From NCBI RefSeq assembly GCF_037414475.1, contig NZ_CP147913.1, forward strand, positions 6,012,001 through 6,076,000: a stretch of 64,000 bases of DNA. Reading direction: 5' to 3'. Of this stretch, positions 9,639 through 60,044 are shown in pieces; position 1 is the first letter of the stretch, and every line of letters starts with the position of its first letter. Source of the DNA: Myxococcus stipitatus (lineage in GTDB: Bacteria; Myxococcota; Myxococcia; Myxococcales; Myxococcaceae). Made by a program: the position numbers and the translations under genes. A model generated the notes under the pieces. That model was not told the DNA's origin. It did no database searches and was given only the letters and a program-made list of their open reading frames with translations.

Positions 9639-9718
9639 GGCCCGCCCACCCTACAACTCTCCCGGGAGGAGCGGGACACGCCCAGGGTGCCTGTGCATGC
9701 GCTCACCGCGCCGCGCCT

Positions 9719-9934: not shown

Positions 9935-10014
9935 GATTGATGGCGCGGGGGGAAGTCGGAGTCAGTGTACCTGGAGTCCGGACCCGCGGGTGGCGGCGGT
10001 GGCCACGTGAGACG

Positions 10015-10043
10015 TCGACGGTGCGTGTCCAGTTCTGTAGCCT
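10015..10043 (+). promoter_or_regulatory. promoter of the Ser/Thr kinase gene
   Basis: TCGACG (10015-10020), a 17-base spacer and TAGCCT (10038-10043). Transcription would start at or near 10051, which is the GTG of the kinase gene, so the message is probably leaderless. Confidence 0.45.
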
Positions 10044-10050
10044 CTGGCCC

Positions 10051-11139
10051 GTGCCTTCCGCAGAGAAAGCCGTCCGTCATCGCAAGATTGGCGCGTATCG
10101 AGTGCTCGGGGAGTTGGGCCGAGGTGGCATGGCCGTCGTGTATCGCGGCCTCCACGAGATGATTCAGCGCGAGGTGGCCATCAAGGAATTGCTGCCGGAG
10201 GGCAAGCGAGACAAGGAGACGATGTCTCGCTTCCGGCGCGAGTCGCTCGCGCTGGCCGCGTTCCGTCACCAGAACATCGTCACGCTCTATGACCTGGTGG
10301 AGAAGAACGACAGCCTGTTCATGGTGATGGAGCTGGTGGACGGGCCCACGCTGCACACGCTCATCCGCGAGGGGCCGCTGCCGCCGGACGTCACGGGGGT
10401 CATCGCCGCGCGCATCGCCAGCGCGCTGGACCACGCGCACTTCCGCCACATCATCCACCGCGACTTGAAGCCGGCCAACGTCATGCTCACCAAGTCCGGT
10501 GACGTGAAGCTGATGGACTTCGGCATCGCCAAGGACGTGGGCCTGGAGGCGCTCACGCAGGCGGGCATGGCGGTGGGCACGCCCTCGTACATGTCTCCGG
10601 AGCAGGTGACGGGGGCGCCGTTGGATGGCCGCACCGACATCTTCTCGTTGGGGGTGCTGCTCTACGAGGCCCTCTCCGGCGCGCGCCCCTTCCACGGCAA
10701 GACGGCGGGCGAGGTGTTCGCGAAGATTCGCGACGGCAAGTACACGCCGCTCAACAAGGTGGCGCCCAACGTGCCCGCGCCGCTGGTGCGCATCATCCAG
10801 CGCGCCATGGAGGTGAAGCCCGAGGACCGCTTCCCGGACGCCGCCGCCATGCGCCGCGAGCTGGACGTCTTCCTGGCCCAGGAGGTCCCCATGTCCCATG
10901 CGGGGCTGCTGGTGGCCTTCCTGCGCCACCGCCAGAAGCTGACGGAGACGGAGGCGCAGCAACTGCTCAGGCCCCAGGAGCTGGACGCCGTGGCGGACGT
11001 CTTCGACACCTCGCGCTCCCGTTCGGGTGGGATGCTCAAGTGGGCGCTGACCGCGCTGATTCTGGCGTCCGCGGCCGGAACCGGCCTTTACTTCACCCAG
11101 GCGCAGTGGGCGCCATTCGTGCAACAGCTCACCCGCTGA
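10051..11139 (+). CDS. membrane-anchored Ser/Thr protein kinase
   Basis: A 362-residue eukaryotic-type kinase. Gly-rich loop GRGGMA, VAIKE lysine, HRDLKPANV catalytic loop, DFGIAK and SPEQ activation segment are all intact, so it should be active. A single C-terminal membrane segment (WALTALILASAAGTGLYF) is followed by only a few residues, anchoring the kinase on the cytoplasmic face with no sensor outside. The longer frame from 9937 would include promoter sequence, hence the GTG start at 10051. The small membrane protein at 11158 follows after 18 bases and is probably co-transcribed. Confidence 0.85.
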   Translation: MPSAEKAVRHRKIGAYRVLGELGRGGMAVVYRGLHEMIQREVAIKELLPEGKRDKETMSRFRRESLALAAFRHQNIVTLYDLVEKNDSLFMVMELVDGPTLHTLIREGPLPPDVTGVIAARIASALDHAHFRHIIHRDLKPANVMLTKSGDVKLMDFGIAKDVGLEALTQAGMAVGTPSYMSPEQVTGAPLDGRTDIFSLGVLLYEALSGARPFHGKTAGEVFAKIRDGKYTPLNKVAPNVPAPLVRIIQRAMEVKPEDRFPDAAAMRRELDVFLAQEVPMSHAGLLVAFLRHRQKLTETEAQQLLRPQELDAVADVFDTSRSRSGGMLKWALTALILASAAGTGLYFTQAQWAPFVQQLTR

Positions 11140-45504: not shown

Positions 45505-46419
45505 ATGCGGACAATCCACCAGGCGGACCCCAACGCCGTCATCGCCTTCCTGGAGGTCGCCGAGCAGCGGAGCTTCCGAGGGGCCTCCCGGAAGCTGGGC
45601 ATCCCCAAGTCGACGTTGAGCCAGCGCGTGGCGATGCTCGAGGAGCACCTGGGCGTGAGCCTGTTCTCCCGGACCACGCGCAGCGTGACGCTCACGGACA
45701 TCGGCGCCAGCTACCAGCGCGAGGTCGCCCCCGCCATCGCGGCCCTGCGCGCGGCCGAGGCTCTGGTGGGAGACCTCCAGGCCCATCCCAGCGGACGGCT
45801 GCGGATGACGCTGCCCTTCGAGCTGGGGCAGCGCGCGATGGGGACCGTGCTGTCGACGTACATCGCCCGCTACCCGGACGTGAAGGTGGAGGCGGAGTTG
45901 ATGGACCGCCGCGCGAACCTCATCGAGGAGGGGTTCGACCTGGCGGTGCGTGTCGGTCCCTTGGATGACTCGAGGCTCATCGCGCGCCGGCTCGGAGGCG
46001 GCCATCGGCTGGGCGTCTACGCGAGCCCCGCCTATCTGCGCCGCGCGGGAGTCCCCAAGGAGCCCAAGGACCTGGTGCGGCACCGATGTCTGGCGATGAC
46101 GGGCTCCTCCTCACCGACGACCTGGACGTTTGGCGGCGCGCGGCGGGCCCGCGGCGTGAGCTTCGTCCCCAGCACGTCCGTCAACAGCATGGAGGTGCTG
46201 TTGGCGCTCGCCATCGCGGACGCGGGCCTCGCGCGCTTCCCGCCCCTCTACGCCGCCCCCGCCGTCGCGCAGGGCAAGCTCCGCGAGGTGCTCCACACCT
46301 ACGCCCCTCCGCCCCTCCACCTGTTCGCCGTCTACCCGGGGGCGCGCCATGTCTCGCCCGCCGTGCGCGCCATGGTGGAGTTGCTCGGCGAATACTTCAC
46401 CACCGTGTCCTGGGCGTGA
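45505..46419 (+). CDS. LysR-family transcriptional regulator
   Basis: A 304-residue protein with N-terminal helix-turn-helix ([24 protein letters not shown]), then a periplasmic-binding-like effector domain ([24 protein letters not shown]). This is the CrgA/DmlR-like subgroup. It faces the ene-reductase gene, its likely target. CCGGA-N7-TCCGG at 45486-45502 lies directly ahead of the start and includes the Shine-Dalgarno, so it could be an autoregulatory site. Confidence 0.88.
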
Positions 46420-46529
46420 GCCATCCGCCCGCCCGGCCGCTCCCGTCAATCCAACCTGTTCCTGGCTTTGCCGTTCCCGAGCCACTATGACGGCGGTCCC
46501 CCACCGCAGCGCGAGGGGGCATCGTCGCC

Positions 46530-47909
46530 ATGAGTACATCCGCCATCCCCACGTCCAGTGCCGCCACTCCCGCCCACTCGGTTTCGCGCGTGTGGCGTGG
46601 GCGCGTGTTGCTCTTCGTCCTCTACTTCGCGGCGCTGGCGATGTTCCCCATCCCCTCGCCGTTCGACTCGAAGCTTCTGGTCCCCACCGCGTTGTCGATT
46701 CTGCGCGAGGGGAACATCGAACTGGACGAGTACTCGCAGACGTTCAGCTGGTTCCGCCATGGCGTCTTCGACCTCAATGGCCACGTCTACAACTACTTCC
46801 CCCTGGGGCCTTCGCTGGTCGCGCTGCCCATGGTGGTGGTGGTGGACGGCTTCGTGCGGACGGTGGAGCCGGTGCGCCATGTGCACCCGGGGCTGGCGCG
46901 CTTCTGTGAGCACTGGCGCCACATCTACGACGCCACGGGCCAGGTAGACCTGGGGGCGTGGGACCACCCTCAGCGCTACTTCGCCTCCGTGCTCATGGCG
47001 ATAGCGGGCGTCGTCATGTACGTGCTGGGCACCGCGGCGCGCCTGTCCCGTCCGCGCGCGCTCCTGCTGTCCACGCTCTTCGTCTTCGGCACGCCGCTGC
47101 TCTCCACCGCCAGCCGGGCGATGTGGCAACACGGGCCCTCGCTGCTGTGCCTCACCTTCGTGCTGCTCTGCCTGGTGCGCGCGAGGGAGAATCCGAGCGC
47201 CGCGGGCTGGGCGGGGCTGCCGCTGGCGCTCTCCTATGTGATGCGGCCCACCAACAGCATCTCCGTGCTGCTGTTGACGCTGTACGTGGTGTGGACGTAC
47301 CCGCGTCAGGCGTGGAAGTTCTTCGCGGGGGCGCTCGTGGTGGCGATTCCCTGGGTGACGGTGAACTACGTCCACTACGGCTCCGTGCTGGCGCCGTACT
47401 ACGAGCCCCAGCGTCTGGAGATTGAGGGGGCACGCATGGCCGAGGCCCTGGCCGGAAACCTCGTGTCTCCGGCGCGGGGGCTGCTCGTCTTCACCCCCGT
47501 GGTGTTGATGGGCCTCTGGGGCCTGGTGCTGGAGTGGCGCGCGCGGACCTTCACCCGGCTGCACGCCGTCCTCATCGCGGTGGTGCTGCTGCACTGGGTG
47601 ACGGTCTCCACCTTCCCGCATTGGTGGGCGGGGCACTCGTATGGTCCGCGCTTCTTCACGGACATGGTGCCCTACATGATGTTCTTCCTCCTGCCGGTGG
47701 TGCGGACGCTGAGCTGGCGAGGCCCCGAGGCCCGGCGCGCCATGACCGCCACCTTCGCGGTGCTGGCCGTGCTGAGCCTCGGGATTCACATCCACGGCGC
47801 CAGCTCCCGCTCCGTGTACGCGTGGAACCCGCTCCCCATCGACGTGGACCAGAAGCCCTCGCGGCTCTGGGATTGGAAGGACCCCCAGTTCCTGGGCCTC
47901 CGTCGCTGA
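46530..47909 (+). CDS. multi-pass membrane protein, GT-C-like
   Basis: A 459-residue protein with about 9-11 membrane helices. The first loop, FPIPSPFDSKLLVPTALSI followed by acidic NIELDEYSQ, recalls the acidic first external loop of GT-C glycosyltransferases, which use lipid-linked sugars. A long loop (~residues 95-150) with WDHPQRYF sits between helices. No exact family match from memory. The following gene lies on the opposite strand with stops only 2 bases apart. Confidence 0.7.
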   Translation: MSTSAIPTSSAATPAHSVSRVWRGRVLLFVLYFAALAMFPIPSPFDSKLLVPTALSILREGNIELDEYSQTFSWFRHGVFDLNGHVYNYFPLGPSLVALPMVVVVDGFVRTVEPVRHVHPGLARFCEHWRHIYDATGQVDLGAWDHPQRYFASVLMAIAGVVMYVLGTAARLSRPRALLLSTLFVFGTPLLSTASRAMWQHGPSLLCLTFVLLCLVRARENPSAAGWAGLPLALSYVMRPTNSISVLLLTLYVVWTYPRQAWKFFAGALVVAIPWVTVNYVHYGSVLAPYYEPQRLEIEGARMAEALAGNLVSPARGLLVFTPVVLMGLWGLVLEWRARTFTRLHAVLIAVVLLHWVTVSTFPHWWAGHSYGPRFFTDMVPYMMFFLLPVVRTLSWRGPEARRAMTATFAVLAVLSLGIHIHGASSRSVYAWNPLPIDVDQKPSRLWDWKDPQFLGLRR

Positions 47910-47911
47910 CG

Positions 47912-49513
47912 CTACGGTTGGACCCCGGGCGCGCCTTCGCGGCGGAAGAGCAGCGTCCCGGTGGTCCGGTCCACGCGCACGGCCCGCACCTTGCCGTGGG
48001 CGTCGCGCAGGAACTCGAGGGTCAGCCGGAAGAGCGCATCGCCCGGCGTCACGAAGCGCGTGGGCGTCAGCGCGTGGAGCTTCACGGTGGGGCCCGTGCC
48101 TGACCGGATGGTCACCGAGCCCTCCACGACGCCGAACTCGAGCGTGTCGGAGTCGAAGTGCGCGCTGAGGTTGCCGGCCAGTTCGCCCGGCGCCGACGTG
48201 TCCCAGCGGTAGGTGCCGGCGTAGTCCGACAGCGCGGTGACGGGCAGCGCCACGGTGCGCAGCACGGGATTGACGCCGCGCCCGAGCGCATCCGAGATGG
48301 CGTTGCGAATCTCCGTCGCGAGCTGGGTGCCCTGGGGCGCGTTGGTGAGGATGACGAGGCCGTCTCCGGTCTCCAGAGAGCCTTCCATCCAGGCGCGGTA
48401 GCTGTCGTTGGTGCCGCCGTGGTGGAAGACGCGGGACGGACCGTCGCCCGCGAGGCGCGGCCCGAGACCGAAGTGACTGGGAGACACCTCGGTCATCATC
48501 TGCACGGCGAGCGGGTGGGGCAGGTAGGGGTTCTTGCCCTGGTAGCTGGCAATCAACGTCTGGACGAAGGCGCCCAGGTCATTGGCGCTGGTCCACAGGC
48601 CGGAGGCGGCCTGCTCGGCGAAGCTCTCGTAGCCGCGGGGCAGGGCGGTGCGCTGGCCTTCCTTGTCGTGGGCCTTGGCGATGTTGCCCAGCTTCGCGGG
48701 CAAGGGATTGACGTAGGTGCTGCGGCGCATGCCGACGGGCTGGAACACCTCGGTGCGCGCGAGCGCCTCCAGCGGTTTGCGCTGGGTGTCCTCCAGCAGC
48801 AACTGCTCGACGGTGATGCCGCCGCCGGAGTATCGCATGCGTGTCCCGGGCTCGAACGCGATGCGGACAGGCTCGCTCTTGGCGGGCTTCACGCCGTCGA
48901 GAATCTGCACGAGGGTCGGCAGCTTCTCGTCCGGTTGATAGTCCTCGAAGCCCCACACCGACAGGCCCGAGGTGTGCGACATCAACATGCGCAGGGTGAG
49001 CGTGCTGCTCTTGAAGGCGGGCGCGGCGGGGACCTTCCACGAGGTCAGGTACGTGTTGACGTCCCGGTCCAGGTCGAGCTTGCCCTTGGCGACATGGCGC
49101 AGCGTGGTGGCGGCGGCGACGACCTTGCTGATGGAGCCGACGGAGAACAAGGTGTCCGCGTCCACGGCGTCCTTCGTCCCAGCCTCGCGCACGCCGAAGC
49201 CGGCGGCGTGGACGACCTTGCCGTCCTTGAGCACGGCGATGGCGACGCCTGGGACATGGTAGTGCTCCATGCGTTGCTTCAGCGACCAGCCCGGAAGCGG
49301 CTCACCCATCTTCAGCATGGAGGGGCGCAGGCCCTTCTCGAGCGCGGTCTTGATGGGGAGCGTCTCGTCAAGAGCAGCGGGCGCGGAGGCGAAGGCATTC
49401 CCCGCGAGCAGCATGGCGGCCCACAGGGGCGCGCGGCGCCATCGGCGTCCCGGATGCGGGATGATGGGACGGGTGGGGTGGCTCCGCTCGTGTGTCTGTT
49501 GCCCTGCGTCCAT
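47912..49513 (-). CDS. periplasmic beta-lactamase-family serine hydrolase
   Basis: A 533-residue protein with an N-terminal signal sequence ending near AFASAPA. Class C-like fold: nucleophile Ser in SVGSISKV (S-x-x-K), Tyr in MRYSGGG and FHHGGTNDS in place of the KTG strand. The C-terminal ~130 residues form a separate beta-rich domain. Such proteins are D-amino-peptidases, esterases or carboxypeptidases rather than true beta-lactamases. GAGGAG precedes ATG 49513. Confidence 0.87.
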   Translation of the reverse strand: MDAGQQTHERSHPTRPIIPHPGRRWRRAPLWAAMLLAGNAFASAPAALDETLPIKTALEKGLRPSMLKMGEPLPGWSLKQRMEHYHVPGVAIAVLKDGKVVHAAGFGVREAGTKDAVDADTLFSVGSISKVVAAATTLRHVAKGKLDLDRDVNTYLTSWKVPAAPAFKSSTLTLRMLMSHTSGLSVWGFEDYQPDEKLPTLVQILDGVKPAKSEPVRIAFEPGTRMRYSGGGITVEQLLLEDTQRKPLEALARTEVFQPVGMRRSTYVNPLPAKLGNIAKAHDKEGQRTALPRGYESFAEQAASGLWTSANDLGAFVQTLIASYQGKNPYLPHPLAVQMMTEVSPSHFGLGPRLAGDGPSRVFHHGGTNDSYRAWMEGSLETGDGLVILTNAPQGTQLATEIRNAISDALGRGVNPVLRTVALPVTALSDYAGTYRWDTSAPGELAGNLSAHFDSDTLEFGVVEGSVTIRSGTGPTVKLHALTPTRFVTPGDALFRLTLEFLRDAHGKVRAVRVDRTTGTLLFRREGAPGVQP

Positions 49514-49653
49514 GATGACTCCTCATCCCAGGTGAATCCGTGGCACCCGCTAACAGGGGGGCTTCGGTTCTATTCGTGGAGTCTTGGAGGGAAGAGGAGG
49601 TCGGAATCACCCCGATTTGTGTCCGGGCGGAGTGACACTTAAAGAGTGTCTCC

Positions 49654-50490
49654 ATGGGCAACAAGACGGACTCGGGGCGTGGTTCGGACCTGGAGCTGGA
49701 CTGGGGTTCTCGAGAGCCTCGTCCCCAGGAGGGGGCGCCGGATGCGGTGACACGTTCCGCGGAGACGGCGGTTCTGGAGCCGGTGCTCGCTGGGAAGGGG
49801 CCGCCCGGCGACCCGCGCTACATGAGCATGGAGCTGCGCTACTCGATGGCGGCGGTGCTGTCGTCGCCGATGCTGCGCATGCGCCAGTTCCGCGAGACGA
49901 TGGAAATCCTCGTGGGCTGGGAGGGGCGGAACCAATACAGCATCAGTGGCGAGGACGGCCGGAACTCGGTGTTCGTGGGCGAGACAGGGTCTGGCTGGAC
50001 GTCTCAGCTCCTGCGCAACTTCTGGCCATTCCACCGCCAACGCATGGAGTGCATGACGCCGACGGGCATGCTGGCCCTGGCGGTCGAGTTCCCCTGGTTC
50101 CTCTTCTTCGCCCGCGTGGAGGTGTTCTCGTGGGATGGCCGACCCATGGGAGAGGTCGTCCAGCGGTTGAGCTTTCCGGGCCGACGCTTCGACATCGTGT
50201 CGCCCACGGGGGTCGTCCTCGCGACCGTGAAAGGCCCACTCTTCAAGCCGTGGACCTTCCGTGTCTTCCAGCGCGACGAGGAGGTGGCTGTCATCCGCAA
50301 GCACTGGAGCGGTCTGGTCCAGGAGACCTTCTCCGACGCGGACAACTTCAGCGTGGAGTTCCAGCCGTCGTGCACCGATGGCCGGTTCCGGCAACTGGTC
50401 CTGGCCGCCGCGTTGCTCGTTGACCTGACCTACTTCGACAACCGGAGGCGTGGCGTCTCGCTCGGTTCCCTCTTCAAGTTCTTCGACTAG
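49654..50490 (+). CDS. phospholipid scramblase-like (LURP-one) protein
   Basis: A 278-residue protein with the 12-stranded beta-barrel pattern of scramblase/Tubby-like proteins at ~60-260: ARVEVFSWDGRPMGEV, then FKPWTFRVFQRDEEVAVI and the terminal DNFSVEF. A C-terminal hydrophobic helix (LVLAAALLVDLTYF) is present, as in eukaryotic scramblases. The N-terminal ~55 residues are disordered and Pro/Gly/Glu-rich. The family's original role is disputed; lipid binding is safer to assume than flipping. The last 4 bases overlap the convergent oxidoreductase. Confidence 0.8.
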   Translation: MGNKTDSGRGSDLELDWGSREPRPQEGAPDAVTRSAETAVLEPVLAGKGPPGDPRYMSMELRYSMAAVLSSPMLRMRQFRETMEILVGWEGRNQYSISGEDGRNSVFVGETGSGWTSQLLRNFWPFHRQRMECMTPTGMLALAVEFPWFLFFARVEVFSWDGRPMGEVVQRLSFPGRRFDIVSPTGVVLATVKGPLFKPWTFRVFQRDEEVAVIRKHWSGLVQETFSDADNFSVEFQPSCTDGRFRQLVLAAALLVDLTYFDNRRRGVSLGSLFKFFD

Positions 50491-51524
50491 GACGCGTCCC
50501 CGACACGCACCACGAGCTTGCCGAAGTTGCGCCCCTCGAGCAGGCCGATGAAGGCCGCTGGAGCGTTCTCCATGCCGTCGACCACGTCCTCGCGCAGCTT
50601 GACCTTCCCCGCGCCGAGCCATGCGCCCATGTCGCGCCGGAAGTCCTCGAAGCGCGTCGCGTAGTGGTCGAGGATGATGAAGCCCTCCAGGCGGATGCGC
50701 TTCTGGAGCACCGTGGTCAGCAGCCGCGGCAGCTGGTTCGGTCCGGGCGGAAGCGAGTCCGCGTTGTAGTTCGAGATGACCCCGCACACCGGTACTCGCG
50801 CGTGGTTGTTGAGCAGCGGCAGCACCGCGTCGAACACCTCGCCGCCGACGTTCTCGAAGTAGACGTCGATGCCGTTGGGGCACGCGGCGGCCAGCCGCTC
50901 GGCCAGGTTCGAGTCCCGGCGGTCGAGGCAGACATCGAAGCCCAGCTCCTCGACGGCGTAGCGGCACTTGTCCTGGCCCCCCGCGATGCCCACCACCCGC
51001 GCGCCACGCAGCTTCGCCAGCTGTCCGACGACCGCGCCCACCGCGCCTGTCGCCGCGGCCACGACCACGGTCTCCCCCGCCTTCGGCTGGCCCAAGTCGA
51101 GCAACCCCACGTACGCGGTGAACGCGGGCATCCCGAGCCCACCCAGCGCCCATGACGGACGCGCCATCTCACCGAGGGCGACCAGGTCCTTCCCGTCCGA
51201 CACGGCGTAGTCCTGCCAGCCCGCGTTGCTCAGCACCAGCTCGCCCGCGCGGAAGGACGGATGCTTGGACTCGACGACGCGGCTGACCGTTCCACCCACC
51301 ATCCGCTCGCCTGGCTTCACCGGCGGCGCATAGCCCGGGCCGACCTCGTCCATCATGTTGCGCATGTAGGGGTCGAGCGAGAGGTACACCGTGCGCAGCA
51401 GCACCTCTCCTTCGCGGGGCGTCGGGAGGGGGACTTCCTCGAAGCGGAAGTCCTGGAGGGTCGGCGCGCCCCGGGGATGGCGCGCGAGGACGACGCGACG
51501 GTTGACGGTCTTGCTTTGAGGCAT
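50487..51524 (-). CDS. zinc-independent NADP-dependent oxidoreductase (PTGR/CurA-like)
   Basis: A 345-residue medium-chain reductase lacking zinc ligands. NADPH fold AATGAVGAVVGQLAKLRG; GLGMPAFTAYVGLLDLG; and the C-terminal EGFIILDHYATRF typical of leukotriene-B4 dehydrogenase/prostaglandin-reductase/curcumin-reductase relatives. It reduces double bonds of enones. The TetR-family operator TAGACCGGTCGTCTA lies 46-60 bases upstream of ATG 51524, so it is probably induced by the electrophiles it removes. Confidence 0.88.
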   Translation of the reverse strand: MPQSKTVNRRVVLARHPRGAPTLQDFRFEEVPLPTPREGEVLLRTVYLSLDPYMRNMMDEVGPGYAPPVKPGERMVGGTVSRVVESKHPSFRAGELVLSNAGWQDYAVSDGKDLVALGEMARPSWALGGLGMPAFTAYVGLLDLGQPKAGETVVVAAATGAVGAVVGQLAKLRGARVVGIAGGQDKCRYAVEELGFDVCLDRRDSNLAERLAAACPNGIDVYFENVGGEVFDAVLPLLNNHARVPVCGVISNYNADSLPPGPNQLPRLLTTVLQKRIRLEGFIILDHYATRFEDFRRDMGAWLGAGKVKLREDVVDGMENAPAAFIGLLEGRNFGKLVVRVGDAS

Positions 51525-51569
51525 GGGGGTTCTCAGGGGTGAGGGGAAGGGGAGACGCCGGTGTATGAG

Positions 51570-51584
51570 TAGACCGGTCGTCTA
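51570..51584. promoter_or_regulatory. TetR-type operator, copy 1
   Basis: TAGAC-CGGTC-GTCTA: an inverted repeat with a 5-base centre, 46 bases upstream of the NADP-oxidoreductase start. Identical to the copy at 52247-52261. Confidence 0.75.
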
Positions 51585-51628
51585 TGAGACAGACATGCGA
51601 GGGCGACGACGTGGCGGCTGTTGGGGGC

Positions 51629-52225
51629 TCAGCCCGCCTGGCTCATTCCCAGCATCCGCCGTGTGTTGCTCATGGCGGTGTCGAGGGGGGCTCGGTCGCG
51701 GGTGATTTTCGCGAGCAGACTGGCGCCGAGCCAGCTCTGGTAGAGGGTGGCGGCGGCTGTCTGGGCATCCAGCGAGGTCTTCACCGAGCCATCGGACTTG
51801 CCCGCTTCGATGCCACGCGCAATCCGCGCGACGATGCTCTGGGTGCCGCGATCCAGGACCGCGCGCATGTTCTCGGACAGGTCGCAGACCTCGGCCCCTA
51901 GCTTGACGACGAGGCAGCGCTGCTGCACGTCGGCGTCTGTCTGGGATTCGAGCCAGTCGCGGAAGTAGGCGACGAGCCGCTGCGCGGACGTGCCTCGCTT
52001 CGAGAGCAGCTCGTCCATGCGCGCGAGGCAGTCGGTGAAGTAGGTCTCCAGCAGCGCCTCGCCGAAGGCCTCCTTGGAGCCGAAGTAATGGTAGAACGAG
52101 CCCTTGGGCACCTGCGCGGCCTCGAGCACCTCCGCCAGACCGACGGCGGAGAAGCCTTTTCGCACCAGCAGCGGGTGGGCCACTTCCAGGATGTGGCGGC
52201 GGACATCGACACCCGAGGGACTCAT
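51629..52225 (-). CDS. TetR-family repressor (NemR/AcuR-like)
   Basis: A 198-residue regulator: helix-turn-helix VGLAEVLEAAQVPKGSFYHYFGSK, then an all-helical ligand domain with Cys104 (QQRCLVVKLGAEV) and Cys114. A reactive Cys at this place senses electrophiles in NemR-like proteins; that is inference here. Its own start is 21 bases downstream of one operator copy and the oxidoreductase gene has the other, so it likely represses both. The pair encodes an electrophile-detoxification switch. Confidence 0.88.
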   Translation of the reverse strand: MSPSGVDVRRHILEVAHPLLVRKGFSAVGLAEVLEAAQVPKGSFYHYFGSKEAFGEALLETYFTDCLARMDELLSKRGTSAQRLVAYFRDWLESQTDADVQQRCLVVKLGAEVCDLSENMRAVLDRGTQSIVARIARGIEAGKSDGSVKTSLDAQTAAATLYQSWLGASLLAKITRDRAPLDTAMSNTRRMLGMSQAG

Positions 52226-52245
52226 GGCCGCTGACTTAACGGCGA

Positions 52246-52262
52246 CTAGACCGGTCGTCTAG
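52246..52262. promoter_or_regulatory. TetR-type operator, copy 2
   Basis: CTAGAC-CGGTC-GTCTAG, a perfect 6-bp inverted repeat with a 5-base centre, 21 bases upstream of the TetR gene. It is the extended form of the copy before the oxidoreductase gene. The 52263-52401 gap beyond holds nothing recognised. Confidence 0.8.
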
Positions 52263-52401
52263 CGAATCGACGGGGGTTGTTTCGGGACGCGGTGAAGTGA
52301 CCACCGGCGGCGCGTGGGCGCAACCGGTGGTCACCTCGTTCAGGGCGTGCGTGGCGCGGTTCCTGATTCAACCGGAAGCGCGCCAGCGCTCCATGTTGCT
52401 G

Positions 52402-53088
52402 TCAGGAGAAGCAGTGGAAGTTGATGCTCAGGACGCCGATGGTGCCAGTCGTGTACGCCCCGGCGGCCACGCCCGTGGCGAATCCGTAGTACTGACACAC
52501 CTGGTTGGCGACGGCGCGCACCTGGTACCACGGCGCATAGTGGGGATTGAACGACGACCCGAAGGCCGGGAACCTCGTGTCATTGGTGCTGGCGCCCCGC
52601 CCCTGCACGCGCGAATGGTCGAGACACACCAGGCCCACGTCGTTCGTCACGCCGTTCTTGTAGCCCGTGAGGAATCCCCCTCCGTAGTTCAACCCCATCT
52701 GTCCGCACTCGCTGGTCGAAGCGGCCTCCGCCTTGAAGGACATCTGCTGGTCGAGCACCGTGATGCCGTCGTCCCACCAGGCCCACCGGCTGATGCTCGA
52801 GAAGGGAACGTCCTGCCAGGTGACCATGTCGGACGTGAAGCAGTGCACGCCCATCAACTCACCCGACTGCTCTCCCGTGTACATGCCTCGTGCGTAGCCG
52901 TACTGCGCACACACCGCTTCCGCGCCCCGGTTCGCGTACGCCCAATTCACGCTTCCACGGCTCGTGATGGGATAGCCGGATGCGGCGCGCATCGCGGCCG
53001 TCGTGTCGAACCAGACGACTCCCGCGAGTGCCTGCGCAGATGCCAGGGTGATGGTGAGGCTTGCCAGTGCTGATACGAACTTGGTCAT
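52402..53088 (-). CDS. secreted Cys-rich protein, paralogue A
   Basis: A 228-residue exported protein (signal peptide to about ALAG, residue 23), family not recognised. It has two halves that resemble each other: AEAVCAQYGYARGMYTGEQ near the start of one and ANQVCQYYGFATGVAAGAY near the end of the other, each closing on HCF. Six Cys fit three disulfides. AGGAG precedes ATG 53088 by 8 bases. It is the downstream member of three tandem copies (A, B, C) on the minus strand. Confidence 0.78.
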   Translation of the reverse strand: MTKFVSALASLTITLASAQALAGVVWFDTTAAMRAASGYPITSRGSVNWAYANRGAEAVCAQYGYARGMYTGEQSGELMGVHCFTSDMVTWQDVPFSSISRWAWWDDGITVLDQQMSFKAEAASTSECGQMGLNYGGGFLTGYKNGVTNDVGLVCLDHSRVQGRGASTNDTRFPAFGSSFNPHYAPWYQVRAVANQVCQYYGFATGVAAGAYTTGTIGVLSINFHCFS

Positions 53089-53208
53089 GGGTGCGGCTCC
53101 TGTGGTTGGAATGTCCAAGAGCAATACGAGCCCGTGCTCAATCCTGGTCGTCGCGGGTATGTGATTCGTTGGTGTTGCGGGTTTTCCCGTGGGGGTGTGG
53201 CTCTCCTG

Positions 53209-53889
53209 TCAGTAGAAGCAGTCGAAGCCGAGGTTCAGGACGCCGGTGCCCGTCGTGACAGCCCCGTCGGCCGTGCCCGTGGCGAATCCATGGTACTGGC
53301 ACACCTGGTTGGCGGCGGCGCGCACCTGGTACCACGGGGAATAGTTGGGGTGGAGCGGTGGCGTGAGGGCCGGGAATCTCGGGTCATTGGCATCCGCGCC
53401 CCGAATCGCCACGTGGGACCTGTCAATGCACACCAGCCCCACGACGTTCGACAAGCCCGTGTGTCCCGTGAGGAATCCCCCTCCGTAGTTCATGCCCATG
53501 GAGTTGCATTCGTTGTGCGCGGTGGCCTCCGCCTTGAAGGACACCTCGGCGTCGAGCGTGGTGATGCCGTCGTCCCACCAGGCCCACCGGCTGATGCGTG
53601 AGAAGGGGACGTCCTGCCATGTCACCATGTCGGACGTGAAGCAGTGCACGCCCATCAGCTCCCCGGCCTGCTCTCCCGTGTACATGCCCCGCGCGTAGCC
53701 GTTCTGCATGCAGACCGCCTCCGCGCTCCGGTTCGCGTACGCCCAGGTCACGCTCGCACGGCTCGTGATGGGAAAGCCGGCCGCGGCGCGCATGGCGGCT
53801 GTCGTATCGAACCAGACGACTCCCGCGAGCGCCTGCGTCGCTGTCAGGGTGAGAGTGAGGCTTGCCAGGGTTGACGTGAGCTTGGTCAT
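53209..53889 (-). CDS. secreted Cys-rich protein, paralogue B
   Basis: A 226-residue paralogue of A and C, differing mainly by substitutions: signal MTKLTSTLASLTLTLTATQA, then GVVWFDTTAAMRAA as in A. The duplicated VC...GYARG/GFATG halves and terminal CFY are kept. The gap to copy A (53089-53208) and the gap beyond (53890-54009) are also similar, so the duplicated unit includes the upstream region. Confidence 0.78.
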   Translation of the reverse strand: MTKLTSTLASLTLTLTATQALAGVVWFDTTAAMRAAAGFPITSRASVTWAYANRSAEAVCMQNGYARGMYTGEQAGELMGVHCFTSDMVTWQDVPFSRISRWAWWDDGITTLDAEVSFKAEATAHNECNSMGMNYGGGFLTGHTGLSNVVGLVCIDRSHVAIRGADANDPRFPALTPPLHPNYSPWYQVRAAANQVCQYHGFATGTADGAVTTGTGVLNLGFDCFY

Positions 53890-54009
53890 CGGTGCGTCTC
53901 CTGTGGTTGGAATGTCCAAGAGGAATACGAGCCCACGCTCAATCCTGGTCATCGCAGGTATGTGATTCGTTGGTGTTGCAGGTTTTCCGTGGCGGTGCGG
54001 ATTCGCCTG

Positions 54010-54684
54010 TCAGTAGAAGCATTTGAAGGCGAGGTTCAGGATGCCGCTGCCCGTCGTGGCCGCCCCAGTGGCCGTGCCCGTGGGGAAGCCATAGTGCTGA
54101 CACACCTGGTTGGCGGCGGCGCGCACCTGGTACCACGGCGCATAGTGAGGATTGAGCGGCGGCGTGAGGGCCTGGAACTGCGGGTCATTGGCATCCGCGT
54201 TCCGTATTGTCACGTGGGACCTGTCGAGACACACCAGGCCCACGACGTTGTTCGGGCCCGTGTGCCCCGTGAGGAAGCCCCCTCCGTAGTTCATGGTGTC
54301 GCACTCGGAGTTCGTGGCGGCCTCCGCCTTGAAGGACACCTGCTTGTCGAGCACCGTGATGTCGTCGGACCACCAAGCCCACCGGCTGATTTGCGAGAAG
54401 GGAACGTCCTGCCAGGACACCATGTCGTGCGTGAAGCAGTGCACACCCATCAGCTCACCCGACTGCTCCCCCGTGTACATGCCCCGCGCATAGCCGTTCT
54501 GCATGCACACCGCTTCCGCGCTCCGGTTCGCGTACGCCCAGTTCACGGTATAGCGGCTCGTGATGGGAAAGCCGGATGCGGCGCGCATCGCCTCCGTCGT
54601 ATCGAACCAGACGACTCCCGCGAGTGCCTGCGCCGACGTCAGGGTGACGGTGAGGCTTGCCAGCGTTGAAATGACCTTGCTCAT
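54010..54684 (-). CDS. secreted Cys-rich protein, paralogue C
   Basis: A 224-residue paralogue, upstream-most of the three on the minus strand (signal MSKVISTLASLTVTLTSAQA). It lacks two residues in the central region relative to B (CDTMNYGGG for CNSMGMNYGGG). Otherwise the cysteine and Trp positions match. Role unknown; three copies of a secreted protein suggest a dose effect or divergence toward different targets. Confidence 0.78.
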   Translation of the reverse strand: MSKVISTLASLTVTLTSAQALAGVVWFDTTEAMRAASGFPITSRYTVNWAYANRSAEAVCMQNGYARGMYTGEQSGELMGVHCFTHDMVSWQDVPFSQISRWAWWSDDITVLDKQVSFKAEAATNSECDTMNYGGGFLTGHTGPNNVVGLVCLDRSHVTIRNADANDPQFQALTPPLNPHYAPWYQVRAAANQVCQHYGFPTGTATGAATTGSGILNLAFKCFY

Positions 54685-54827
54685 TCGTGCGGCTCCTGGG
54701 GTTGGAATGTCCAAGAGAAATACGAGCGCACGCGCAATCCTGGTCGCCGCGACGAAGAGTCGTATGGGGCTCTCAACTCCTTGAGACCTCAATGCTTTTT
54801 GGAAATCGTCATCGTCTGAAATACGGA

Positions 54828-54833
54828 TGTCGA
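54828..54833 (+). promoter_or_regulatory. possible ECF42-type -35 element
   Basis: TGTCGA lies about 60 bases upstream of the first YCII gene. From memory, ECF42 sigma factors of actinomycetes recognise TGTCGA at -35; a -10 match here is not clear. If real, the sigma gene at 55656 drives its own cluster. Confidence 0.3.
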
Positions 54834-54893
54834 TTTCGTGGGGGGCCGTTCGGCCAAGAGGTGTTCAACGAAGTCCACTTCAAGGAGAACGCC

Positions 54894-55256
54894 ATGAAGT
54901 ATCTCTGCTTGCTGCACTATGACGTCGCGAAGTTCGAGACGATCAGCGCCTCACGGATGGAGGCCATCGTCAAGGAATGCACGCCTTACGACGCGGCCCT
55001 CAAGGCCAGCGGTCAGCTGGTGGTCCAGGGGTCTCTCCAACACGGCAGCGCCATGATTCTGCGCCCGCGCGACGGCAAGACGACGACGTCCGAGGGCACC
55101 CTCGCCAGCACGGTGGGCGCGGTGCTCGTCCTCGAGGCTCGCGACCTGAACGACGCGGTCCGCGTGGCGTCGCTGCATCCGGCGGCGCGCACCGGAGAGG
55201 ACCTGGGATGGGCCGTGGAGGTCCGCCCGCTCGAGATGTTTGAATACAGGGCGTGA
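54894..55256 (+). CDS. YCII/DGPF-family protein, DGPF motif lost
   Basis: A 120-residue ferredoxin-like-fold protein starting MKYLCLLHYDV. The family hallmark DGPF is replaced by SEGT in the aligned position. The end, VASLHPAARTGEDLGWAVEVRP, matches the next gene closely. AAGGAG is 7 bases before the ATG. First of three genes in the ECF42-type cluster; function of the family is unknown. Confidence 0.85.
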   Translation: MKYLCLLHYDVAKFETISASRMEAIVKECTPYDAALKASGQLVVQGSLQHGSAMILRPRDGKTTTSEGTLASTVGAVLVLEARDLNDAVRVASLHPAARTGEDLGWAVEVRPLEMFEYRA

Positions 55257-55293
55257 GCCGCATGACAAGCCGTCACGCACGTGGGAGGACACC

Positions 55294-55659
55294 GTGAAGT
55301 ATCTCTGCCTCGCCTACTACAACGAGGCGGCCTTCGAGTCGCTGACGCCCGCAGAGCTGGAGGCGTTGGGCAAGGAGTGCCAGCCCCATGATGAAGCCCT
55401 TCGTCAGAGTGGGAAGCTCGGCACGGTGGCCTCGTTGCGGCATCGCTCGGTGGCCACTGTGCGGTCCAAGAGTGGCCGGATTTCGGTGACGGACGGGCCG
55501 TTCGTCGAGTCGAAGGAGCAGGTCGGCTCGTTCTTCCTCCTCGAGGCGCGCGATTTGGACGAAGCGGTCCAGGTCGCGTCGCTCCACCCCGCGGCGCGTC
55601 TGGGCGAGCACCTGGGATGGGGCATTGAAGTCCGGCCCGTCGAGACGTTCGTGCCGTGA
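55294..55659 (+). CDS. YCII/DGPF-family protein
   Basis: A 121-residue paralogue of the previous gene, with the intact motif in VTDGPFVESKEQVGSFFLLE. GTG 55294 is preceded by GGGAGGA. Its stop overlaps the sigma gene start by 4 bases. DGPF proteins are regular partners of ECF42 sigma factors, perhaps as sensors or enzymes. Confidence 0.88.
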   Translation: MKYLCLAYYNEAAFESLTPAELEALGKECQPHDEALRQSGKLGTVASLRHRSVATVRSKSGRISVTDGPFVESKEQVGSFFLLEARDLDEAVQVASLHPAARLGEHLGWGIEVRPVETFVP

Positions 55660-56912
55660 GCGACGCAGCCGGAGAGGAGCTTCGACGGAAGCTCGATGAG
55701 GTCTACCGCGCGGAATCACGGCGTGTGCTCGCCACGCTCATTCGGCTCCTCGGCGACTTCGAGCTCGCCGAGGAGGCGCTGCACGAGGCCTTCACCGCGG
55801 CGGCCCTGCGCTGGCCTCGGGAGGGTGTGCCCGCGAATCCCCGCTCATGGCTCGTCTCCGCGGGGAGATTCCGGGCCATCGACCGGCTCCGTCAGCGCGC
55901 GCGGTTCGATGAGCGCGTCGCGGACCTGACCTCACAGCTGGAGGTCGCCACGCCCTCTCCGGATGCGGCTGACGACGAGTGGGCCGATGACCCGCTGCGC
56001 CTCATCTTCACGTGCTGCCATCCGGAGCTCCCGCCGGATGCGCAGATTGCCCTCACGCTGCGCGAGGTCTGTGGGCTGACCACGGAGGAGATTGCACACG
56101 CGTTCATGGTCGGCGCGTCCACCATCGCGCAGCGAATCGTGCGAGCGAAGGCGCGGATTCGGGAGGCGCGGATTCCCTACGAGGTGCCGTCCCTGGAGGT
56201 GTTGCCAGACCGGCTCGACACGGTGCTGCGTGTCGTCTACCTCGTCTTCAACGAGGGGTACCTTGCTTCCTCCGGGCCCGCGCTCCTGCGCACGGACCTG
56301 TCGAGCGAGGCGCTTCGCCTGGGCCGGCTCCTCGTGGAGCTGTTGCCGGAGCCCGAGGCCCTGGGGTTGCTGGCGCTGATGCTGCTCACGGAAGCCCGCC
56401 GGGAGGCGCGCATGTCGAGCGGTGGGGACCTCATCCTCCTCGAGGACCAGGACCGCTCGAAGTGGAACGCGGCCTTCATCGCCGAGGGCAGCGCGCTGGC
56501 CGAGCGGGCCCTGCGCTCACGGCGGTTCGGGCCGTACACGCTCCAGGCCGCCATCGCCGCGGTCCACTCGGAGGCGCGGGAGGCGGGGCGGACGGACTGG
56601 CCGCAGATTGTCGGGCTCTATGACGTGCTCCTTCGCGCGGAGCCCTCTCCGGTGGTCGAGCTCAACCGTGCGTTGGCGGTGGCCATGCGCGATGGGCCCA
56701 CCGCGGGCCTCGCGCTGGTGGACGGGCTGTTGGAGCGTGGGGCGCTGACCGACTACCACCTCCTGCACTCGGCCCGTGCGGACCTGTACCGGAGGCTGGG
56801 GAGACGCGCGGAGGCCCGGGCTTCGTACGAGAGGGCGCTCGCGCTCACCCGTCAGGAGGCCGAGCGGCGATTGCTCCAGCGGCGGCTGGACGCGTTGGGG
56901 GAGGGCCCGTGA
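55656..56912 (+). CDS. ECF42-type sigma factor with C-terminal extension
   Basis: A 418-residue protein: sigma region 2 (residues ~15-85), region 4 (~110-170, EVCGLTTEEIAHAFMVGASTI), then a ~240-residue helical DUF6596/TPR-like tail with a VVELNRALAVAM repeat. The tail, the length and the linked DGPF genes define the ECF42 group, which has no anti-sigma factor and is thought to be controlled through the tail. GTG 55656 overlaps the upstream stop by 4 bases. Confidence 0.9.
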   Translation: MSDAAGEELRRKLDEVYRAESRRVLATLIRLLGDFELAEEALHEAFTAAALRWPREGVPANPRSWLVSAGRFRAIDRLRQRARFDERVADLTSQLEVATPSPDAADDEWADDPLRLIFTCCHPELPPDAQIALTLREVCGLTTEEIAHAFMVGASTIAQRIVRAKARIREARIPYEVPSLEVLPDRLDTVLRVVYLVFNEGYLASSGPALLRTDLSSEALRLGRLLVELLPEPEALGLLALMLLTEARREARMSSGGDLILLEDQDRSKWNAAFIAEGSALAERALRSRRFGPYTLQAAIAAVHSEAREAGRTDWPQIVGLYDVLLRAEPSPVVELNRALAVAMRDGPTAGLALVDGLLERGALTDYHLLHSARADLYRRLGRRAEARASYERALALTRQEAERRLLQRRLDALGEGP

Positions 56913-56991
56913 GCGGGGCCTGAGGTTGACGCGCCTCGCGGGCTCGTCTACGTGGCGGAGCCGGGTGGTCCTGCTCCCGGAGAGGTCTTGG

Positions 56992-58059
56992 GTGGCGCGT
57001 CGGTCTTCATCAGCAGCCCAGCCTTCGCGGCCCTCCGTCGAGAACTTCCCCGCGACGCGGTACCAGGGCAGCAAGCTGAAGCTCCTGGACTGGCTGTGGG
57101 CGCAGCTGGCGCCCCTGAAGTTCGACTCCGTGGTCGACCTCTTCGGCGGGACGGGGTCGGTCTCCTATCTCTTCAAGGTCCACGGCAAGCAGGTCCACTA
57201 CAACGACAGTCTCCGCTCCAATCACCTCATGGGGCAGGCGCTCATCGAGAACCCGTCCACACGCTTCGAGCCCGAGGAGGTGGCGGACCTGGTGACTCCG
57301 AAATCGCGGAGCTACTCGGACTTCATCGCGCGGACCTTCGCGAACATCTACTACCCGGATGCAGAGAACCGGCTCCTCGATGTGATGGCGCAGAACCTCG
57401 CCGCGATGCCGGCGGGGTACAAGCAGTCCCTGGGGTACTACGCGCTGTTCCAGGCGTGCATCGCGAAGCGGCCCTACAATCTATTTCACCGCGCCAACCT
57501 GTACATGCGCGAGGCCCGCGTCGAGCGCTCGTTTGGAAACAAGGCGACGTGGGACCGGCCCTTCGTGGACCACCTCACCCGGCGGGCCGCCGACGCGAGC
57601 CGCGCGGTCTTCGACAATGGCCGGGAGAACCGGGCGACGTGTGGTGACGCGGCGCTCATCCCGGGCCGCGCGGACCTCGCGTATCTCGACCCGCCCTACA
57701 TCTCAGGGAAGGGAGTGGGCGTGGACTACGCGGGCTTCTATCACTTCCTGGAGGGGCTGACGGAGTACGCGCGCTGGCCGGAGCGGGTGGACGCTGAATA
57801 CAAACACAGGCCCTACAAGCGCGTGGACTCCCCCTGGAACAGGCCCGCGAGGATTGCGTCCGCCTTCGACGCGGTCTTCGACCGCTGGAGGGACAGCGTC
57901 ATCGCGGTGTCGTATCGCTCCGACGGCATCCCCTCTGTCGATGCGTTGAAGACGCTGCTCGAGCGTCACAAGAAGAAGGTGGTGGTGCGCACGCTGGAGT
58001 ATCAGTACGCGCTCTCCACGAACCAGAAGAGCCGCGAGGTGCTGCTCATCGCCGAGTAG
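56992..58059 (+). CDS. D12-class N6-adenine DNA methyltransferase
   Basis: A 355-residue methyltransferase. N-terminal RYQGSKLKLLDWL (motif X), SAM-binding DLFGGTGS (residues 49-56) and catalytic DPPY (233-236) are in the D12/Dam-type order, with a ~170-residue recognition insert between. It should methylate adenine N6 in a sequence read by that insert. GTG 56992 has GGAGAGG six bases upstream; the longer frame from 56776 overlaps the sigma gene and is not likely. The last 14 bases overlap, tail to tail, the EcoRV-like protein, so the two resemble a restriction-modification pair. Confidence 0.88.
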   Translation: MARRSSSAAQPSRPSVENFPATRYQGSKLKLLDWLWAQLAPLKFDSVVDLFGGTGSVSYLFKVHGKQVHYNDSLRSNHLMGQALIENPSTRFEPEEVADLVTPKSRSYSDFIARTFANIYYPDAENRLLDVMAQNLAAMPAGYKQSLGYYALFQACIAKRPYNLFHRANLYMREARVERSFGNKATWDRPFVDHLTRRAADASRAVFDNGRENRATCGDAALIPGRADLAYLDPPYISGKGVGVDYAGFYHFLEGLTEYARWPERVDAEYKHRPYKRVDSPWNRPARIASAFDAVFDRWRDSVIAVSYRSDGIPSVDALKTLLERHKKKVVVRTLEYQYALSTNQKSREVLLIAE

Positions 58060-58594
58060 GGGCGGGGAGGGTTGCTTCGCCCTGTTCCAGGCCCGGTGGG
58101 GGGAGGCTGGGGGGCTTGAAGCGCTCTTGGATGAACCACTCGACGTCGTCGTCGCGGTTGCAGACGAAGCCGATGACCCAGTGCTCGGCGTAATGGTCCA
58201 GGGGATAGAGGAGGTCTTGCTTTCCGTTCCTCGAGAACGAGGTGTAGGGGCCCAGCGGGAAGGTGATTTCCGGGCGACGGAACGGGGTCGTGATGTCGAT
58301 GGCGATCTTCGCGCGGTCCGCTTCGTTCTTCAGCAAGGTGAAGCGGGGGTAGACGCTTCGCGGCGCGTCGGCGATGCGCAGGCCGTGCAGGTCCGCGATG
58401 TCGACGATGAGCGGCTGGCAGTAGAGCTCGAAGACGGCCGAGAGCACCTGCGCATCCGGCCCGAGGCTGGGGACGCGGTGGCTCTCGCCCAGCAGTCCCT
58501 GGACCTTGAAGTGGACTCCATGGCGTTGGACCGCCGCGGCGAACTCGACTGGAAGATTCAAAGGTATGTCCCCCCGTGCGGCGCCTTCTGGCAT
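58046..58594 (-). CDS. EcoRV-like endonuclease homologue, active site lost
   Basis: A 182-residue protein that parallels EcoRV over most of the N-terminal two thirds: QVLSAVFELYCQPLI against KVLSTIFELFSRPII, VYPRFTLLK against HYPDFTLYK, KIAIDI in both, and LGPYTSFSRN against LGGYTSFIRN. EcoRV cuts GATATC with Glu45, Asp74, Asp90 and Lys92. Here Glu56 and Asp100 are kept, but Arg84 replaces Asp74 and Thr102 replaces Lys92. The chain ends just after the segment matching FLQDKW, before EcoRV's recognition R-loop. The frame is unbroken and codon use host-like. It probably binds but does not cut DNA. Start ATG 58594 has a weak Shine-Dalgarno. Confidence 0.82.
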   Translation of the reverse strand: MPEGAARGDIPLNLPVEFAAAVQRHGVHFKVQGLLGESHRVPSLGPDAQVLSAVFELYCQPLIVDIADLHGLRIADAPRSVYPRFTLLKNEADRAKIAIDITTPFRRPEITFPLGPYTSFSRNGKQDLLYPLDHYAEHWVIGFVCNRDDDVEWFIQERFKPPSLPPPGLEQGEATLPAPTRR

Positions 58595-58874
58595 GTCCGA
58601 AAGCGGCTCACAAGGACGAGGTGGGGGGACGCGGACCTGGCGGCATGCAAGGGGCCTGGGCTCCGGCGAAGGGTCCTTTCTTTGTGTGTCTATTCACTGG
58701 TCAACAATCTCGTGAATTCTTGCTCACGGCTCCGACTCAATTCCTTGCAGGGGGCGCGACGCGCGAGTGTCGACGTGAATCACACCGGGATGTAACTTTA
58801 TCTTTTCCATGTTTTCATTGATTTTCAAGAAAACAAGAATAGCTTGCCGCCGCCTTTTGACCTGGGGGTAATGC
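58595..58874. other. intergenic region with an AT-rich block
   Basis: No gene seen. From about 58789 to 58850 the sequence is roughly 75% AT in a genome near 30% AT, with GTTTTC (58811-58816) inverted as GAAAAC (58829-58834) and TTGATT at 58818-58823. It may be a promoter region for the PhoX-like gene or leftover foreign DNA from the restriction-modification locus. Confidence 0.45.
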
Positions 58875-60044
58875 ATGCGATTGGACCGTCGTGACTTCCT
58901 CCGTCTTTCCGCGCTGGGAGGCGGGGCCTTGGCGTTTGGCCCCACGTTCTGGCAGGCCGCCTACGCCGCTCCCGCCGAGCCCGGGCCCGGGCCCTACGGC
59001 GCGATATCCGGGAGCGCCGATGCCAACGGCTTGAGACTGCCAGCGGGTTTCTCGTCTCGCGTCATCGCGCGCTCGGGGCGCGTGGTGACTGGAACGAGCT
59101 ACACGTGGCACTCCGCGCCAGACGGCGGAGCGTGCTTCCCGGTGGACGGGGGCGGCTGGGTCTATGTCTCCAACTGCGAGACGAGCTCCGGCGGCGCCGG
59201 CGCGGTGCGCTTCGATGGCGGCGGCACCATCGTGGATGCCTATCGCATCCTGACCGGCACGCGCACCAACTGTGCCGGCGGTCCCACGCCCTGGGGCACC
59301 TGGCTCTCCTGTGAGGAGCACGGGAGCGGGCGTGTCTGGGAATGTGACCCGACGAAGGCGTCCCAGGGTGTCGCGCGGGGAGAGTTGGGCACCTTCGCTC
59401 ACGAGGCCGTGGCGGTGGACCCCGATGACGGGCGTCTGTACTTGACGGAGGACACCACCTCCGGCCGCTTGTATCGCTTCACGCCCTCCGCGTGGCCCGT
59501 ATTGACGGCGGGCACGCTGGAGGCCGCGAAGGTGACGGGTGACCCGCTGGCCGGCACGGCCACGTTGAGCTGGGTGGCCTGCGCGGCGACCTCGCCCGCG
59601 TCACAGCAGTCCTCCGTGGCATCCAATACCACCGTCTTCAGCGGCGGCGAAGGCTGCTGGTACGACAGCGGCGTCGTCTACTTCACCACCAAGAGCAACA
59701 ACCGCGTCTGGGCCTACACGCCCGCCACGGGGGCGCTGGAGGTCATCTATGACGCCGCGCTCTACGCGGGCTCTCCGCTCACTGGCGTGGACAACGTGGT
59801 GGTCTCCCGCGCGGGTGACATCTATGTCGCCGAGGACGGCGGCAACATGGAGATCTGCATCATCACCCCGGGCACTCCGCGCATCGTCTCGCCCTTCTTG
59901 CGGCTGGACGGACACTCCAGCTCGGAGCTCACGGGGCCCGCGTTCAGCCCGGACGGCCGCCGTCTGTATTTCAGCTCCCAGCGCGGCACGACGGGCAGCA
60001 GCAGCGGTGGCTACACCTTCGAGGTGACCGGTCCCTTCCGCTGA
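58875..60044 (+). CDS. Tat-exported PhoX-like protein (DUF839)
   Basis: A 389-residue secreted protein with a twin-arginine signal (RRDFLRL, then a hydrophobic stretch and AYAAPAEP). Family motifs are NCAGGPTPWGTWLSCEE, LYLTEDT, EGCWYDSGVVYFTTK and FSPDGRRLYFSSQRG on a beta propeller. PhoX enzymes are Ca/Fe-dependent alkaline phosphatases; this one is shorter than typical PhoX (about 500-650 residues), so the activity is uncertain. ATG 58875 follows the AT-rich block. Confidence 0.87.
   Translation: MRLDRRDFLRLSALGGGALAFGPTFWQAAYAAPAEPGPGPYGAISGSADANGLRLPAGFSSRVIARSGRVVTGTSYTWHSAPDGGACFPVDGGGWVYVSNCETSSGGAGAVRFDGGGTIVDAYRILTGTRTNCAGGPTPWGTWLSCEEHGSGRVWECDPTKASQGVARGELGTFAHEAVAVDPDDGRLYLTEDTTSGRLYRFTPSAWPVLTAGTLEAAKVTGDPLAGTATLSWVACAATSPASQQSSVASNTTVFSGGEGCWYDSGVVYFTTKSNNRVWAYTPATGALEVIYDAALYAGSPLTGVDNVVVSRAGDIYVAEDGGNMEICIITPGTPRIVSPFLRLDGHSSSELTGPAFSPDGRRLYFSSQRGTTGSSSGGYTFEVTGPFR

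Follow-up and report, generated by a model that had tools for sequence, protein, structure and literature searches.

What role might be served by three exported paralogs of no recognized family that are encoded side by side in the genome of Myxococcus stipitatus? The question is raised by one part of the window, the whole stretch of 64,000 nucleotides that was analyzed here. The initial annotation, made from the sequence alone, had described positions 52402–54760 as three tandem exported paralogs of about 225 residues. The array is real: the genes are complete, lie head to tail on the minus strand, and encode proteins of 228, 226, and 224 residues that carry signal peptides and are 74%–80% identical in pairwise comparison. 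The coordinates are likewise correct, the end at 54760 taking in the upstream element of gene 3.

52402 to 53088, minus strand: gene 1, three-module secreted protein of 228 aa (ATG at 53088, stop at 52402)
53209 to 53889, minus strand: gene 2, three-module secreted protein of 226 aa (ATG at 53889, stop at 53209)
54010 to 54684, minus strand: gene 3, three-module secreted protein of 224 aa (ATG at 54684, stop at 54010)

A search of the whole 10.3 Mb host genome returned these genes as the sole matches up to E 10. As read from the sequence, the N-terminal signal peptide of all three proteins is of typical form, with ...QALAG preceding VVWFD. There are six cysteines per protein, all kept in all three copies. 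The first is residue 60 in each, far from the signal peptide, and the proteins therefore have no lipobox cysteine. No Gly-X-Y run, the stalk of collagen-like adhesins such as Lcl and Scl, was found by reading, and Pfam gave no Collagen match. In the explanation favored below, the three products are proposed to be soluble exported proteins.

The initial annotation had divided each protein into two half-repeats. This was wrong: there are three repeats, and the diverged middle one had been overlooked. It reads EC...Y..GF.TG....GLVC and follows the same general pattern as repeats 1 and 3. The nine modules are as follows.

52828 to 53019, minus strand: gene 1, module 1 (Cys60, Cys83)
52612 to 52827, minus strand: gene 1, module 2 (Cys128, Cys155), middle repeat overlooked earlier
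52405 to 52611, minus strand: gene 1, module 3 (Cys198, Cys226)
53629 to 53820, minus strand: gene 2, module 1 (Cys60, Cys83)
53416 to 53628, minus strand: gene 2, module 2 (Cys128, Cys154), middle repeat overlooked earlier
53212 to 53415, minus strand: gene 2, module 3 (Cys197, Cys224)
54424 to 54615, minus strand: gene 3, module 1 (Cys60, Cys83)
54217 to 54423, minus strand: gene 3, module 2 (Cys128, Cys152), middle repeat overlooked earlier
54013 to 54216, minus strand: gene 3, module 3 (Cys195, Cys222)

All three repeats align in register over 14 family genes, two further whole genes, and one truncated gene. A profile of 23 repeats, which includes window sequences so that E-values for the window are partly by construction, found nine copies in the host genome, three per gene, at E 1.9e-15 to 3.5e-10; beyond these nine, no match was better than E 0.5. 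The middle repeats scored E 1.1e-12 (gene 1), 1.8e-10 (gene 2), and 3.5e-10 (gene 3), two of the three being rows of the profile that scored them. Over 195 genomes, the same profile gave three matches each in 13 other genomes, nine in the host, and two in the truncated gene of genome G060. In shuffle tests on the three window proteins, the values for repeat 1 against repeat 3 were 0, 0, and 1 of 500, and those for comparisons with the middle repeat were 5 to 50 of 500, so single sequences reveal the middle repeat weakly. AlphaFold models, both built from five-sequence alignments, have three strand-helix-strand-strand units for gene 2 (pLDDT 71, pTM 0.74) and, at modest confidence, for gene 1 (pLDDT 61, pTM 0.67). 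Both cysteines of the middle repeat are missing jointly in 3 of the 14 aligned genes (G008, G017, and G019, which form one clade), and the remaining four are invariant in all 14. This joint loss fits one disulfide per repeat, that is, a disulfide-type cysteine pair in each module. The statement that the repeats end in CF is correct for repeats 1 and 3 (C terminus CFS or CFY), and the broader claim of duplication at the level of both gene and domain is supported.

No known family was recognized by the initial annotation, and none was found here: the window proteins have no above-threshold match in Pfam, NCBIfam, PHROGs, or PDB sequences. A profile search, one of the checks suggested at the outset, was run against the PDB with the repeat profile and returned only the YecR-like chain of 7bgl, at E 0.42. 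YecR is a flagellar-region lipoprotein. The corresponding Pfam family (YecR-like lipoprotein, PF13992) scored 17, 19, and 16.3 bits, below its gathering score of 27. A short A..xC...GY motif is common to YecR and the window repeat; however, the alignment covers only 13 residues of the PDB chain and about 31–34 in Pfam, and the lipobox expected of a YecR-like lipoprotein is lacking in the window proteins. The window genes were also absent from the results when the whole genome was searched with PF13992.

Comparison of the predicted structures with known Cys-rich folds, another of the suggested checks, produced no convincing fold relative. Foldseek found no match at E ≤ 0.001 among PDB and viral models. 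With VIA-align, the gene 2 model (pLDDT 71) aligned best with SrfN (Z 4.0, rmsd 3.4, 65 aligned), and 44 residues of its module 1 aligned with the plant defensin PhD1, representing the CS-alpha-beta defensin fold (Z 3.1, rmsd 2.8), both below the Z of 8 that is the tool's meaningful level. The likeness to the secreted SrfN/YdgH proteins, which we take to be DUF1471 proteins, and to plant defensins is thus a partial alignment of a moderate-confidence model. Among Pfam matches up to E 10, neither group of families appears, apart from diapausin, an insect peptide (E 0.28 with gene 2).

A lead came from outside the family. Run over the 195 genomes, the repeat profile hit two sequences that are not part of the window family. 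One of these, in G102 (E 0.0037), contains an internal stop, makes no sensible protein, and was dropped. The other, in G033, has E 4.3e-4 for the one genome (about 0.08 expected over 195) and forms the C-terminal head of L153, a collagen-like secreted protein. A search with the L153 head gave matches in at least 12 of the 195 genomes at E 0.01, G033 included, and an alignment profile of 14 such wider modules gave matches in at least 56 of 195 at E 0.001. Neither the L153 head, up to E 0.01, nor the 14-row profile, up to E 0.001 with the best 32 candidates per genome scored, retrieved the window-family genes; the sole match of the latter in the host genome lies in a different gene. What ties the family to the wider module is therefore the one match at E 4.3e-4 together with profile-profile comparison. 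Family repeats and wider modules compared at E 8e-8 over the A..xC-x3-GY-x-x-G ... C motif and, without L153 or with subsets, at E 1.7e-7 to 1.1e-5; in five tests of 100 column shuffles each, no shuffle reached the score. Four cysteines do not vary among the 14 wider modules, and the window-family modules keep only the last two of them. The first two are also absent from the third module of a Laminin_G-type group described below. Identity of window-family modules to modules outside the family averages about 19%. In the wider-module proteins scanned, the module had no above-threshold match in Pfam, NCBIfam, or the PDB, and the neighboring collagen and metal-binding parts alone were recognized. 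The grouping of the window module with an extracellular, myxobacterial head module is proposed as a component of the favored explanation, which as a whole is tentative. Of the surface or predation-related role first suggested for the array, the surface role is favored, as the related module appears to be the head of secreted collagen-like proteins; none of the results bears on predation.

The architecture of the relatives points to how such a head may be used. Modules per reading frame were counted in 40 loci (L167–L206), several of which are duplicates of one gene. A single module was counted in 12 distinct genes; every one of them also encodes Gly-X-Y repeats, with 3 to 33 nine-residue matches, and has the module at the C-terminal end. 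One of these genes (G057) is cut by the contig end, and most stalked genes look mutually related, so that the 12 do not amount to 12 independent events. In three other distinct genes (L172, L174, and L178), the modules number three and a collagen stalk is lacking, with 0, 0, and 2 scattered Gly-X-Y matches, respectively. L174 also carries MopE-type metal-binding motifs, and the L178 protein continues past its modules. Three module-like segments each are found in a widespread Laminin_G-type orthologue group of 15 loci in 15 genomes, for which a Laminin_G_3 domain was found in the one member scanned. The third module of this group is weak by HMM (3–5 bits, and under 3 bits in 1 of the 15 loci), and the first matches the family repeats poorly (probability 9%); each segment nevertheless scored above all 60 shuffles against both profiles. 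The host's own gene of this type (L207, at about 7.149 Mb) seems frame-disrupted in the Laminin_G and first-module region, and modules 2 and 3 read through.

All stalk-less proteins examined, namely the window family, the three other genes, and the Laminin_G-type group, thus carry three modules, and the window proteins conform to a pattern of one module with a stalk and three without. The modules of L174 are 43%–57% identical to each other, with a best outside identity of 47%. In a module tree, those of two window-family genes pair by position (support 98, 68, and 96), support elsewhere being mostly low. Together these observations suggest that tripling of the module occurred more than once.

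The upstream sequences bear on how the genes may be expressed. A promoter-like element precedes each of the three genes.

53121 to 53149, minus strand: promoter-like element GACCAGGA-N13-CGTATTGC, upstream of gene 1
53922 to 53950, minus strand: promoter-like element GACCAGGA-N13-CGTATTCC, upstream of gene 2
54717 to 54745, minus strand: promoter-like element GACCAGGA-N13-CGTATTTC, upstream of gene 3

In 12 aligned leaders from unrelated sites, a conserved block begins rather sharply at GACCAGGA, with CGTAT 13–14 bases on. The element has one changed base in the L026 leader and was not seen in that of L030; the truncated L032 and L035, whose aligned start is inside the frame, were left out of the scoring. 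Searching 27 genomes for the exact pattern gave 41 occurrences, spread over 22 of the genomes, against 1 occurrence of the reversed pattern, and 12 of the 41 precede the window family. Six of the 41 look like a coding coincidence, one sequence present in six genomes. With two mismatches allowed, counts in the host genome were close to those of the reversed control (103 versus 77 for a spacer of 14; 56 versus 44 for a spacer of 13), and only the exact pattern is therefore informative.

The element also precedes the gene of a HEAT-repeat protein, of which 13 orthologues were examined: measured from where the motif begins, the start codon is 37 bases away in 12 of them and 38 bases away in the remaining one, which puts it about 10 bases past CGTAT. 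This spacing suggests that the element is a shared alternative promoter, giving a leaderless transcript in the case of the HEAT-repeat gene. In the host genome, this gene for an exported protein (L079 6089–8035, minus strand), with the element GACCAGGA-N14-CGTAT, adjoins dnaA (8098–9450); the same protein is found in 12 further loci. The same element stands before the gene of a secreted protein, about 320 residues long and without a Pfam match, in three loci that were read (L080 6976–8022, minus strand; L054; and L076), and there is a fourth match in G019. Downstream of CGTAT, the leaders contain a short inverted repeat, TTGGC...GCCAA in some homologues and TTGG...CCAA in the window, which by eye seems to be kept despite base changes. 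The CGTAT box resembles promoters of extracytoplasmic-function (ECF) sigma factors, and the element is a candidate ECF-type promoter. Between 52200 and 55000, nothing above chance was found for sigma-70 promoters or intrinsic terminators, and a sigma-54 promoter was dismissed by eye. The adjoining sigma factor gene (55656–56912), presumably of the ECF42 type, was set aside as the regulator; it lies beside a family gene in the window's own clade only.

These features bring up the main rival explanation, that the products are periplasmic envelope proteins, disulfide-stabilized and made in an envelope stress response, which would serve as chaperones, inhibitors, or scaffolds and have no extracellular role. 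A signal peptide without a lipid anchor, an element common to genes for other exported proteins, the ECF-like CGTAT box, and the sub-threshold similarity of the repeat to the flagellar-region lipoprotein YecR would all fit. However, the related module heads collagen-stalked proteins and sits in a Laminin_G-type protein, both extracellular-looking, and no sigma factor was identified for the element. A periplasmic role is therefore considered rather unlikely, if still the most serious competitor.

The distribution of the family was followed in related genomes. Homologues are present in at least 12 of the 27 genomes of the genus, in at least 16 of 96 of the host family at E 0.01 (counting a doubtful match in G083), and in at least 15 of 195 of the phylum at E 0.001 (up to 14 candidates scored per genome), all in one family; the G083 match (41 residues, E 0.0013) was dropped, and the G060 copy in the phylum tally is truncated. 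Copy number in related genomes, proposed earlier as a check, is one in every other carrier among the matches listed, and the host genome alone has more, with three. The G060 gene (L032, about 9540–10070) lacks the first module and the signal peptide in the frame seen and is probably decayed; the same genome also carries a collagen-stalked single-module protein (L169).

Surroundings were compared for two sister-clade genomes, G008 and G017; in both, a single copy occupies the corresponding position, flanked by a YCII gene and a TetR gene. Outside the window's clade the neighbors are unrelated, and the 14 genomes compared have about 11 chromosomal sites, G024 and G013 being counted as one site on the basis of about 1.4 kb in common around the gene, bounded on one side by a contig end. 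Counted from the aligned first residue, DNA similarity between sites reaches no more than about 160 bases upstream, and it runs no more than about 85 bases beyond the stop; a few other DNA matches are found away from the gene. An origin in mobile elements was rejected: no relatives of the window family, or of the L153 head, were found in phage or plasmid records, none of 11 viral-contig stretches fitting the pattern was confirmed, and only 1 of 11 site neighborhoods scanned (L027) has a tRNA, one in number. Within the window, no tRNA was found at 46000–60000 and no Rfam RNA family at 52000–55300. Adjoining the array, and seemingly unrelated to it, two YCII-domain genes and then a sigma factor with DUF6596 and a TPR extension occupy 54885–56912, a known type of sigma factor neighborhood.

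In trees of 15 genes, gene 1, the closest of the three window copies to the single copy of the sister genomes, groups with the sister-clade copies (support 98 for DNA, 96 for protein), and genes 2 and 3 group together (89 and 99). The first duplication may therefore predate the split, with a loss among the sister genomes afterwards; the same tree shape could come about if genes 2 and 3 evolved faster. The initial annotation had taken the duplications as a sign of repeated selection. This was not borne out: dN/dS is 0.40–0.72 between the window paralogs, and gene 1 compared with its three orthologues in the sister clade gives 0.27. There is no sign of positive selection, and the values fit evolution that is relaxed or accelerated but still under purifying selection.

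A second rival explanation would make the products variable secreted proteins of inter-strain competition (antagonists, receptor decoys, or immunity-type proteins), their copy number raised by selection for diversity. The patchy presence within the genus, the unrelated genomic sites, the raised dN/dS between copies, and the confinement of extra copies to one lineage agree with it. Nevertheless, dN/dS stays below 1, the six cysteines are retained in all three copies, and none of the five neighboring genes scanned (two YCII genes, the sigma factor, a TetR regulator, and an oxidoreductase) is a toxin, immunity, or secretion gene, which leaves competition improbable. Still less credit is given to a developmentally expressed structural component of the extracellular matrix or fruiting body, multiplied for dosage, since 15 of the 27 genus genomes have no match, unexpected for a core developmental protein, even though three copies each with a promoter-like element and an extracellular related module would suit it.

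The explanation favored here is that the window proteins are single-chain, stalk-less heads of three modules that act as secreted multivalent binding proteins; by analogy with the stalked relatives it is plausible, although it falls somewhat short of an even chance. Collagen-like stalks form trimers. A single module on such a stalk would hence be presented as three heads, and since collagen trimerizes, we infer that the functional unit is a head of three modules. Each window protein would supply all three in one chain, as three strand-helix-strand-strand modules with one Cys pair apiece. Such proteins would most likely bind a cell-surface or matrix polymer, the candidate class of ligand, and each copy would probably be transcribed from its own conserved promoter-like element. 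A broader and more doubtful generalization, possible at best, is that the extracellular module works only in threes, either as single heads assembled by collagen or as three fused in one chain, that fusion had more than one origin, and that the fused form was afterwards multiplied in the window lineage, giving a tandem set of diverging, secreted three-headed binders.

If this is true, it would define a myxobacterial extracellular binding-head module that is not named in the libraries searched and would tie orphan secreted proteins to collagen-stalked adhesin-like proteins. No description of the head module or of the one-or-three architecture was found among the titles and abstract openings listed in literature searches. 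The rule, one module with a stalk and three without, would be simple, testable, and of a kind rarely visible from sequence alone. The window proteins would also be a naturally occurring form of a trimeric head in one chain and without a stalk, convenient for structural and ligand work.

The closest functional analog is Lcl of Legionella. In a published report (PMC11162425), Lcl is described as a collagen-like adhesin with a C-terminal head that is trimeric and has sulphated glycosaminoglycans as its ligands, the head being a C-type-lectin-like, DUF1566-containing domain with no disulfide bonds. A collagen-like protein with a C-terminal head is also the architecture of the stalked relatives of the window module. 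In contrast to Lcl, the window proteins have no collagen repeats and carry three cysteine-paired modules in one chain, and DUF1566 (PF07603) is absent among their Pfam matches up to E 10. Because the Lcl head is, as described there, a different and disulfide-free domain, the comparison is one of working alike and not of membership: the window proteins may work as Lcl does, presenting three heads at once, with the three joined in a single chain.
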